Positions 7,538 to 15,454 of a stretch of DNA of 64,000 nucleotides are shown here, piece after piece. The translations under genes were made by a program, and so were the position numbers. The stretch lies in the NCBI RefSeq assembly GCF_026914265.1, contig NC_069123.1, positions 35,363,178 to 35,427,177 of the forward strand. Reading direction: 5' to 3'. The DNA comes from Mya arenaria. Taxonomy: Eukaryota; Mollusca; Bivalvia; Myida; Myidae. The first letter of the stretch is position 1, and every line of letters starts with the position of its first letter. The notes under the pieces are model-generated. The model did not search any database. It was not told the origin of the DNA and worked only from the letters and a program-made list of their open reading frames with translations.

Positions 7538-10500
7538 CTACGGCAGTCCATTGACCATGGCCATGACTCCCGCAATAAATTCTTCGCCAGCTATCTGAAT
7601 CTGATCTCGAGGGAGTAGGAAGCCAAATTCTCCTTTGTCTCTTAGCGCATACGCAAGCGAGATCAAGATGTGTTCATCCTTGCAGGTCCAATCCATCGCT
7701 AATCCATGGGCCATAGCTAAAATACAAAGTAAGAAAAGCTGTTCAAGATAAGTTTGATGTTTTCATGATTTCTCTATATTCTTTTGAGTTGTTTTTTATT
7801 TCGTACAATCCCGCTGGGGACAATGTAGCACCCAAATAATGATTTGGGAAGTATAAATGAGTTTACAAATATTGAAAAAGGCTTTTTTGACAAAGTAGTA
7901 TTGGTTTTAACTCGAACATATTTTATCTGCAGAATCAGATATGACCTAACTAGTTTAACTGACGTTACATTGTACTAGGCAAGAGTGGTTAACGCCTACT
8001 GAGAGTTTTTTTCTGTTTTTGAGGAAACGCAATAGCGTCTGGCGGGAAGGCATTAAGCCAATGTAACAGTTCGTCTATTTTTTACTCCTTACCATACAGA
8101 GTAAATGTTTTGTAAGAAACCGTATGTTTGGCTCCGTGTTCTGTTAACATTTGTGTTCAGTGCGCTTCCTGAACCTTCACGGTCCAGTAGCGCGTCTGGG
8201 CTTTGAGTAACGGAATATTTACAAATCTGATAATCAAACATTCCGATTTATTTTAATGATAACGTTTATATCAATGTGATACGTACAACATACAAGTTAT
8301 GGTTTTTAATACGAAAAGTGTATAACTAAATATTATTTGGCATGGTATATAAGGTACAAAATATTTATGAATCAAGTACGTGCCATAGCAAATGAGCTAG
8401 TTTCTGCCATTTAAGATTCTGACCTACATATATGCTAGCTTTTCAAATTCTATTAACCATCAATCACTTATTTGTGTATCGGGTACCTTTAGGATAAGAG
8501 CTGACATTATATATAATTGCGGTTAAAAGTAAGTCTACATGCACAAATATTACCAGTATGTCATTGCAGTACGTACCTAGTAAGTCAGGGATTTGTCCAA
8601 CGGCGTAGGTGTGTCCATCAATGCTTTCGATTGCCGATGCACTAATAGTCCCAAGCTCCATCTGAAAAACAAAGTGTATTTGTTTCGTTATAAAAGTGAC
8701 TTTTATGTAGGTGATCTGATTATGTCGAATACACTTTGTATATGCATGCATTTTTCCTAGATTATGACAGTACTGAATACTCGCTCAAAAAGAATTACTA
8801 TCCTAATGCGGTTGCTGCTTAATTACCAGTTCGTCGAAGTGAGGCACCCTTGTCGTTGTGTATGCATACGGTAAAAGGACTATTTCACCGTAGCTGTGGA
8901 TGTCGACAAATGCCGCTACATTGGTCGAGATGACGTAGTCTCTAATCGCCTGTACCTCCGTCTCCGACCACGGTTCTAGCCCAGAAAACGTTTGTGATGA
9001 GCAGTCAGGGCCAGCTTTCTCATCTGTTTAAATAAAATATGGTAAGCGTGAATGTAGATGGGTAAAACTATATTTTGCCTCACCTTTTTGTTCAATCACA
9101 ACATGGAATTAAACAATTCACACCCATACTCATATGGCCTTTAAACATTTCTCATACATACGATATATGTATATATATATATATATATATATATATATAT
9201 ATATATATATATATATATATATATATATATATATATATATATATATATATATATATATATATATATATGAATATATCTGACTTGTTTGTATGGCCAGTAG
9301 TACACTGCCTGCAGCAAAGTGACATGTACGAGAAAAAATTTAACACAATGGGAACAAGAACAAGTCAAAAGAAAAGAATGAGCTTGCTTAAAGGTACACA
9401 GATCAAAACCTAACGTACATTAACAGGATACATACGAAATTCATCATCCAAATATCTTTATCAATAAATGGTCGAGCCATACATGCTCCAGGGCTGTATT
9501 AGAATATTTCATAAGTTTGTATATGTATGGCCTACATAGTAGCTCAAACGTGACTGCTTCAGTTACAGTGAACTTGTACATTTATAACTGTGACTGTCTT
9601 TTATATACGTACAGCTGCAGATATAACATACAGCTGTAGCCATGATATTTGCGTGTACTGTTAGAACAGGCTGTTATTTTATATATGTTATTTATGATGT
9701 TTGTTTTATTTTTGGTATGGCTGCAGCTTTATATTACTTCCTCAACTATACATATGATGTGCTTTCAAATATAACAATAGGTACAAAATACAGCTGTCTC
9801 TGCAAATTAACAGCTGTACCTACATTGTTTGTCTTAATATAGTTGATAATACTGTTTAGAGCCACTTTTTACACCATATTGTATACGCACCATATCCAAC
9901 CCACATTCTCTCAAAATTACGATCGAAATCCACCCCGTCGGAACAAGTCAGAGTTTTAGTTCCATTATTCACGGTTATACTGTGCGAGGACACGGTTTTC
10001 CTCCAAAGGCGGTCCTACGAAATGAAATATAACATTTACAGTGCCATGGTATTTATATATGGGTCATTTTAGTCTCGCTTTGCTACAGATAGTTATAGAA
10101 GGTCTTATGAAACATATCAACCCAACTTTAATTCAAAACAAAGCAGTCAAATGTGTTGTGTAGGTCATTTATGACTAAAGTTCTCCTATTTGTCGACTTT
10201 CTTTACTATTAGTGAGACGGTTCATAAAAAAGTGTTCAGGCATAAATACATTTTTATCCGTAAATAGAAAAGAATACAAAGGTCAAAAATGTATGTACCT
10301 CAATGTTTTCCGATGTATAACTAGGCTTTTCATTTCAATAGGCCATTAGTGATAATTATAATAGTTCATGTCAGGTGACCCTACATCCCCTATGCCATTT
10401 TGGTATCACTAATATGTAAAATAAATGACCGAAAATATATATCTGATAAAGTTATGGAAGTTTTTTGTCTTTATTTCAATTTCACGCGGAAGAAGGTTGA

Positions 10501-13500: not shown

Positions 13501-15454
13501 CATCTAAACGCATATCCTGTATTTTAAAACGAAAATATGTTACTACAGGAAGGCCTATGTTGTAACTTACTTACACTACATTTGTCATATTCAAACTTCA
13601 ATCTACCCTCGAGTATATAATATGTTATGGCAATTAAATCATATTATATGTTCTAAATGTGTAAGCATTATACATGCAAAAGCATAAAATAAATGTTTAT
13701 CATTAATGTGCTTAATATCAACGAGCAATGATTCACTAAGATAATATTCTATCTCAAACATGTTATCATCGATAGGAGAACATTGGAGCCAACACATTTT
13801 CTTGCGCGATGAACATAGCTCGTCTAGAAATGCACAACTGACTGGAGCTAGCTGAAATGTGTTATCGTTCTATAGGTTTTAGCGTTTCTTTGCCATAAAT
13901 TTGACCTTAGTTAGTGACCAAAGATTGCCTAATTACAAATTGGCGACCTTCATATGCTGTTTTATGTGCACCACCTTTTATGCATTTGATTTGTATTATA
14001 AATCCCTGAAAAGAAAAAACATATAACGAACAAAGACAACAACGCAATATGAATAACAGACGATTGATATATTAATTTAAATATCTGATTTGACGAATTA
14101 ATTTAGTATGGATATTCACCTTAAGTAGTTCACAGAGCTTTTCCAGTTGCCCTTCCGCTTCGGGTTGGATCTTAAAGACCTGGTACCTGAAAAAGGAAAC
14201 GGGATATTGTAATATTGTACATTATCCCGTTCAGCTGAAATTGATACCGTTAGGATAATAATGATGGAGGAGTTAGATGAAACCGAGCATTGTCGGTTAT
14301 CATCTAAAACATACTTTAGATAACCCAACGGAAAAAGATAAACAATACTGTTTCATGCATACCTTAAATCCAACCAACTTCTTTTCAAAACAAATCAAAC
14401 AGATAGCTTTCAAACAGAATTGTATTAAAGATCACAGCAATCAAATTCGCAATCGGCCAAATTCTTCCCATACAATAAGATAAGTAATGAGCGATTCGAT
14501 TTCTAACTCAGATAGAAATGATCTATTTTGGATGTATGTAGTATTTCCATTCTCAAAATATAATTGAGTATTCCATAACGACTTTTTAAAATATTTTTGT
14601 CTTATTTTGTCTCCTTATTTTGCAATTACCTTTCGCACTGATTTGGTTATCAAATGTACAGTCCAAGAAGTGCATCTAATTTGTACGGTATAAGGTTTAT
14701 AGAAGATTTTGCTATTGTATGCCTATAAAATTATATGTTTTAGAGATCTGTTAAATAAGACAACACAATTTCAATTAACCAGAACCTCTATTGAATATTT
14801 TCTCACATTGGGCATTTCTCCACGTTTAAAAAAACAAACACAGAATTAGGTTAATCTCTTCACTCAAATTCAAAATGGATTTAAAATGTAATTTTAGGAC
14901 AATACTCTCGAAGCAATTTAAAACATATTATGCAACATTTCAATTTTTTTTTAGAAGCCTTTCCTCGAAACAAATTATTTGGAGAAGGGAATTATTTATT
15001 AAAATGTACCGATAACCTTACATCGGTACCATTATGTGAGGATAAGGAAGTAACTCGTTATTGCTTCCTTTAACACGAAATATGATAGTAACGATGTTGC
15101 CCCTTCTATTGACTTATATAAAATTTTCAAACTGAAAGTTCTTTTCGACTTTTTTGTCAATGGAATGTTTCTGGTTGATGGATTGGGTAAAGATACCGAT
15201 GTTAATGCATTTTACCAGTGGCCAATACAATTTTCAGGTAAATGAAAATAAACACGATTTTTGTCAACGTTATTTTTTCAACTTTTTCCACTTACAAGAA
15301 GTATCTCACCAATGCATAGTTATCTTAATTAAGAATTAAACAAATTTTCGAAAGTCTAAAATTCCAAACATAGTAATTTGTCTTACCCGTCATAGTTCTT
15401 TGCAGCCCCGACCGCAGAGAGTCCAAGGAAAATAATAAAATGTAAGTCCATCAT
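7538..15454 (-). CDS. Secreted M14A carboxypeptidase-like protein, probable pseudoenzyme (11 exons)
   Basis: Exons in transcript order: 15454-15387, 14186-14120, 13516-13418, 12500-12372, 12161-12054, 11356-11252, 10946-10842, 10014-9891, 9023-8827, 8661-8577, 7716-7538. All introns are GT-AG and all phases agree, giving 421 aa, about the length of vertebrate pro-carboxypeptidase A. A signal peptide (MMDLHFIIFLGLSAVGAA) is followed by an M14 activation peptide to about residue 110, then the peptidase domain. In bovine CPA numbering, the zinc ligands are kept (H69 and E72 in GSHGREWISP, residues 176/179; H196 in DIHSYG, residue 311). So are R127 (232) and R145 (259). The general base E270 is Ala386 (AYALRD instead of the usual FELRD), Y248 is Ala363, and N144 is Asp258. 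The 255-equivalent is Met370, a CPA-like hydrophobic S1' residue. Family membership is near certain; loss of activity is inferred. Confidence 0.93.
9169..9268. repeat. (TA)n microsatellite, about 50 units
   Basis: An essentially uninterrupted alternating TA tract of about 100 bases, within the carboxypeptidase intron between exons 8 and 9. The IYIYIY-type ORFs it creates on both strands are artefacts. Confidence 0.97.

Follow-up and report, generated by a model that had tools for sequence, protein, structure and literature searches.

M14 pseudopeptidases and a clam locus

A 2024 review of metallopeptidase pseudoenzymes mentions four M14 pseudopeptidases in vertebrates and, from yeast, a single characterized example, the A/B-type protein Ecm14, whose function is unknown (PMC11266112). 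Fungal Ecm14 is defined by the substitutions N144D and E270K, carries a prodomain, and is described as showing no activity in standard assays (PMC7706225, PMC11266112). Here we describe a carboxypeptidase gene of the soft-shell clam Mya arenaria, whose published reference comprises 1.22 Gb in 17 scaffolds (PMC10663159). The gene lies on a stretch of 64,000 nucleotides, the window, at positions 35,363,178 to 35,427,177 of contig NC_069123.1, and it has two paralogues in the same genome, L021 and L022. From comparison of these sequences we consider it probable that the three genes encode secreted M14A-type procarboxypeptidases that had already lost hydrolysis, through E270A, when the copies diverged, have since been kept by selection, and act by binding.

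Like Ecm14, the predicted Mya protein joins a prodomain to an A/B-type M14 domain, keeps the zinc ligands and R127, has N144D and has lost E270; the His145 listed for Ecm14 in Table 2 of the review recurs in L022 (PMC7706225, PMC11266112). Residue 270 is Lys in Ecm14 but Ala in all three Mya copies, which, unlike Ecm14, have also lost Tyr248 and carry an 11-residue loop insertion. Ecm14 and domain III of carboxypeptidase D (CPD) were compared through their published descriptions, not by sequence. The CPD domain comes without the M14A prodomain. It resembles the clam protein in pairing Asp144 with a replacement of E270, by Tyr (PMC5683605), but it is M14B-type and its zinc ligands are lost too (A72, D196; PMC11266112). 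AEBP1/ACLP, CPXM1 and CPXM2 are likewise extracellular M14 pseudopeptidases, but they belong to the regulatory group and have an N-terminal discoidin domain, and in AEBP1 and CPXM2 one zinc ligand is also changed (PMC11266112). The clam genes are apparently a separate lineage with the same pairing of N144D and E270 loss as Ecm14 and CPD domain III. The literature searched yielded no description of this clam family or of bivalve pseudoenzymes, which is not proof of novelty; papers on Mya arenaria and carboxypeptidase included none on this gene, judging by title and the start of the abstract, which does not establish its absence from print.

Loss of the general base

Glu270 activates the zinc water, and Tyr248 closes over the terminal carboxylate. 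That carboxylate is anchored by N144 and R145 (PMC5683605). A preliminary description of the window had reported a complete gene of 11 exons with agreeing phases, and re-splicing from the DNA bore this out: the gene occupies 15454..7538 on the minus strand, its introns are all GT-AG with consistent phases, its stop is TAG, and its coding length of 1266 nt including the stop gives a product of 421 aa. The propeptide named in the same description is matched by the Pfam model PF02244 (Propep_M14; 52.6 bits, residues 27-95, cut-off 22.1), N-terminal to a match to PF00246 (Peptidase_M14; 200.1 bits, residues 122-409, cut-off 21.6), so that prodomain and catalytic domain stand in the order of M14 subfamily A. 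Alignment to human CPA1, whose numbering we apply to active-site residues, equates A386 (codon GCG) with E270, A363 (GCT, split as G|CT at the exon 10/11 junction) with Y248, and D258 (GAT) with N144; pairwise alignments to four solved carboxypeptidases were also used for placement. These three changes, all noted before, were upheld in an alignment of 19 sequences. The same alignment agrees with the earlier statement that the zinc-ligand motifs, R127 and R145 are intact in the window protein, which retains H69, R71, E72, R127, R145, H196, S197 and Y198. Replacement of Glu270 by Ala should abolish ordinary catalysis.

The residue table drawn from this alignment holds 13 of 21 database proteins, human CPA1, two spliced Mya genes and the three family members. 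Database proteins P0001-P0004 were represented by spliced genes, and P0008, P0009, P0020 and P0021 (581-703 aa; jgi, lgn and ena sources; PF00246 alone listed) were left out beforehand. The Mya M14 loci outside the table are L028, which has Glu at the 270 position of its tblastn match, L026, and L001-L004, L006, L007 and L024, which look like other M14 groups. Outside the family, Glu270 and Asn144 are both present in 16/16 rows, which represent 15 genes because L025act and P0010 are the same gene. Since Ala270 and Asp144 are repeated in two further full-length genes, the substitutions go beyond chance. The loss of Tyr248 proved a weak sign of inactivity: Tyr stands at this position in 12/16 E270-bearing rows and is lacking in 4/16, which makes E270A the decisive loss. 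R127 and H196 are each absent from one E270-bearing row (P0007), and R145 is absent from one (P0019).

Three full-length copies

A whole-genome search with the protein gave 43 matches, 33 of which correspond to the exons, 11 per gene, of the window gene, L021 and L022. The latter two lie ~27 kb apart at C2:11.34-11.38 Mb, on the same chromosome as the window gene, and both are full-length, with 421 aa, 11 exons and GT-AG introns throughout. The window protein is identical to them at 397/421 and 387/421 positions, respectively. No further copies were found within the window or 60 kb either side. The strongest of the other matches listed lies on C17 (40% over 67 residues), and the relative there has Glu at the 270 position of its tblastn match; the search scores the best candidates only, and the copy number is thus at least three. 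Database labels for these genes are 'carboxypeptidase B-like' and 'CBPA2-like', names that mislead as to activity.

The zinc ligands H69, E72 and H196 are present in all three copies. In the order window, L021, L022, position 144 is D/D/D, 145 is R/R/H, 248 is A/A/T and 270 is A/A/A, with codon GCG each time. Agreement of three separate loci at codon 386 rules out a sequencing error or misassembly at the window locus. Because E270A is common to all three, it probably predates their divergence; its spread among them by gene conversion is less likely but conceivable.

Forty-two alignment columns are near-invariant (same residue in at least 15/16 rows), and 36/42 are unchanged in all three copies. 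Columns 68, 115, 144, 161 and 270 are altered in all three and column 145 in one copy only; the change at 161, where a Cys adjoins, is at least partly an alignment shift. The preliminary view that just the active-site residues had been lost was therefore nearly right, apart from positions 68, 115 and 161 in every copy and 145 in one. Set against the residues of an active M14 enzyme, the family lacks the general base Glu270 and an intact N144/R145 anchor and keeps R127.

Constraint and probable exchange between copies

Intron divergence between the copies is 0.060-0.088. In the catalytic domain the ratio of nonsynonymous to synonymous divergence (dN/dS), a check proposed earlier, is 0.41, 0.33 and 0.25 for the three pairs, with bootstrap intervals of 0.16-1.30, 0.16-0.64 and 0.13-0.46. 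Coding indels between copies number 0, versus 6.6-10.9 expected per pair from the intron indel rate. Between L021 and L022 the prodomain shows 11 nonsynonymous and 1 synonymous differences and the catalytic domain 18 and 21 (Fisher p 0.007; three pairs were tested, the other two giving p = 1.0 and 0.28). One reading, on small counts, is that a prodomain freed from silencing an enzyme is less constrained.

Similarity among the copies is a mosaic along window positions 7000-16100. Over 14.3-16.1 kb, upstream sequence included, L021 and L022 have 197 shared sites versus 36 and 36 for the other pairings, and over 12.6-14.3 kb 88 versus 42 and 33. From 12.6 down to 7.0 kb, in four blocks, it is the window gene and L021 that share 56, 72, 51 and 29 sites, versus at most 23 for either alternative. 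Gene conversion across 24 Mb best accounts for this pattern; the window/L021 tract would run from about exon 4 onward.

Relatives that bear Glu270

Position 270 is encoded by GAG or GAA in two Mya carboxypeptidase genes on C8, which also have Asn144, Arg145 and Tyr248. Raw tblastn output had suggested Asp at 248 in E270-bearing Mya genes; this was an intron-edge artefact, and the spliced codons, T|AT and T|AC, encode Tyr. The intron that splits this codon has the same phase and column as in the window gene. Altogether seven introns of the C8 genes match the last seven of the window gene in phase, 6/7 of them in the same alignment column and one off by two columns in a gapped stretch; exons 3 and 4 of the window gene form a single exon in both.

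The bivalve digestive carboxypeptidases B-like (Mya P0010, Dreissena P0011, Solemya P0012) have the same domain order as the window protein and are 33-40% identical to it in the catalytic domain, and the two Mya members of this group share the last seven intron phases with the window gene. Unlike the window protein, P0010, P0011 and P0012 keep E270, N144, R145 and Y248. The tree does not place the E270A clade among the bivalve B-like sequences; its stem measures 1.97 changes per column, and nearby forks are poorly supported. The fungal relative P0019, which its source calls inactive, carries Glu270 and Ser145; it lies apart from the clam genes, on a branch flagged as long. None of the non-Mya proteins compared is more than 40% identical over the catalytic domain; the search needs shared 5-residue words, so that true absence of orthologues from other bivalves is not shown.

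Two more observations on C8 concern these relatives. At L027 (437-616; C8:16.40 Mb) a fragment matches the last exon of Mya P0010 at 90% identity across 60 residues and has a stop codon at E270; it is a decayed M14A copy, in contrast with the maintained family. At L025 (~2660-4200; C8:11.30 Mb) an intron of an E270-bearing gene contains many repeats of a piece whose translation resembles YVLPVTNPDGYAYTWQSDK; the repeats seem to have arisen by expansion of the gene's own exon edge.

Possible roles and alternatives

On the reading we favor, the ancestor would have lost peptide-bond hydrolysis via E270A before the three copies diverged, and the product would be a secreted, zymogen-like, zinc-binding protein with a proCPA-like fold. 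Retention of the zinc ligands and R127 naturally points to ligand binding, and the window protein probably binds something rather than digesting it. The most likely mode would be to trap a peptide or protein ligand stoichiometrically at the zinc pocket. The preliminary suggestion of a C-terminus binder is weakened: N144D sits in the carboxylate anchor, and Y248A/T and, in one copy, R145H also hit contacts of the terminal carboxylate. A changed ligand is suggested instead by Asp144, present in every copy, by His145 in L022 and by the Ala or Thr at 248; with the anchor rebuilt and the Tyr248 lid lost, that ligand would probably be other than an ordinary free C-terminus. The shared N144D suggests that when the base is lost the carboxylate anchor may be rebuilt as well. 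A bolder proposal, which we would back only at long odds, is that N144D with E270 loss is a recurrent route by which M14 pseudopeptidases become binders, that the pocket favors a carboxylate-free ligand such as a C-terminally amidated peptide, and that the Mya protein serves outside the cell as a sink or carrier for such peptides. Besides Ecm14, the clam family would give the A/B-type pseudopeptidases a second case to test, this one under constraint in an animal whose genome also holds E270-bearing relatives.

Several points weigh against a maintained binder. The dN/dS interval of one of the three pairs, window-L021, includes 1, and both the indel and the intron rates come from introns of these same genes, low-complexity stretches included. 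The L021-L022 prodomain dN of 0.044 approximates the local intron rate of 0.048. Owing to gene conversion, the window and L021 copies are not independent witnesses, and L022 is the better one. The comparison proteins called E270-bearing are classed by residue, with no activity implied. AlphaFold2 (AF2), run twice on the paralogue P0001, gave mean pLDDT of 71.4 and 71.2 and was weak over exon 8, much of which falls below 50, and over parts of the active site, so that we argue no geometry from the models. Finally, 30 residues of exon 8, positions 144 and 145 among them, are missing from the database proteins P0002-P0004; if they are truly skipped, the domain might not fold. Some of these points would suit young duplicates in decay, with E270A as the first lesion and frames open for now: by intron divergence the copies are recent, the L021-L022 prodomain is near neutral, the window-L021 interval includes 1, and the same genome holds the L027 fragment with its stop at the E270 codon. 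However, E270A is in all three copies and probably older than their divergence, catalytic-domain dN/dS is 0.25-0.41, and coding indels are absent, and we regard decay as very unlikely. The earlier preference for a maintained pseudoenzyme is thus supported by three intact E270A copies, catalytic-domain constraint, the lack of coding indels and the 36/42 retained columns; with the one wide dN/dS interval kept in mind, the family would fit the description of an M14 pseudopeptidase as an intact, selected gene whose catalytic residue is lost.

Ligand capture could take the form of a decoy, in which the dead protein would soak up carboxypeptidase inhibitors of food or parasites (e.g., cyanobacterial anabaenopeptins or small protein inhibitors) and so shield the clam's active digestive carboxypeptidases. 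Potent inhibitors of this kind are recorded from snails and cyanobacteria, and the retained zinc ligands and R127 would suit such a role. By analogy from another peptidase family, Trichobilharzia has a digestive cathepsin B paralogue that lacks activity, forms complexes with cystatin and is proposed to protect the active forms (PMC7054455). However, docked anabaenopeptin C touches N144, R145 and Y248 of CPB (PMC12927552), positions changed in all or some of the clam copies, so that such ligands should bind less well; a decoy is rather unlikely. It is also conceivable that the protein is an altered yet active enzyme in which activation of the zinc water has passed from Glu270 to another group, such as Asp144, and the substrate is an unusual one. 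Asp144 accompanies the loss of E270 in all three copies and the near-invariant positions are otherwise largely retained, but Ecm14, with N144D and E270K, is reported inactive in standard assays (PMC11266112), and we hold residual catalysis to be highly improbable. The functional product might, alternatively, be an isoform spliced from an internal exon 8 donor (CACA|GTATAA, window 9980-9981), a different kind of molecule with the pocket region removed. All three 'CBPA2-like' models, P0002, P0003 and P0004, read as using this in-frame junction, and P0002 equals the window protein except for the 30-residue gap and the junction residue (by-eye comparison). The published assembly was annotated by MAKER with RNA-seq (PMC10663159), from which we infer the origin of these models. 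Against this, P0001 (421 aa), which is identical to the product of the spliced L021 gene, has exon 8 in full; the two paralogues have an exon 8 that is 92.7-97.6% identical to that of the window copy; and P0003 and P0004 look like rough models, since exon 5 too is shortened or missing in them. The skip is either an annotation slip or a real isoform, and that the isoform is the functional product strikes us as improbable.

Exon structure and other features of the window

All exons are on the minus strand. Exon 1 (15387..15454) holds the start codon and a hydrophobic N-terminus, MMDLHFIIFLGLSAVGAAK, read by eye as a putative signal sequence, and ends at donor GTAAGA. The activation peptide (PF02244) begins in exon 2 (14120..14186), continues through exon 3 (13418..13516) and ends in exon 4 (12372..12500), which also encodes the linker. 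The M14 domain begins in exon 5 (12054..12161) and has its zinc motif GSHGREW (H69, R71, E72) in exon 6 (11252..11356); exon 7 (10842..10946) was placed by re-splicing. Exon 8 (9891..10014) encodes RLWRKT (R127), the loop insert, Asp258 at the N144 position, and R145. The 11 residues of this insert, between R127 and position 144, are additional relative to Mizuhopecten P0006 and both C8 genes, and they include an NGT sequon, the sole N-glycosylation sequon of the protein in all three copies. Exon 9 (8827..9023) carries DIHSYG (H196, S197, Y198). The final G of exon 10 (8577..8661) is the first base of the split codon for residue 248, and exon 11 (7538..7716) supplies the rest of Ala363 (G|CT), Ala386 (GCG) and the stop TAG. 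A long (TA)n run occupies 9166-9268 in intron 8.

Elsewhere in the window, a serine beta-lactamase-like gene (PF00144, 64.5 bits) has an exon at 41583-41930 on the plus strand. A pair of closely similar exon-like frames with no Pfam match lies on opposite strands, at 44002-44346 (plus) and 50853-51164 (minus), and looks like an inverted duplication.
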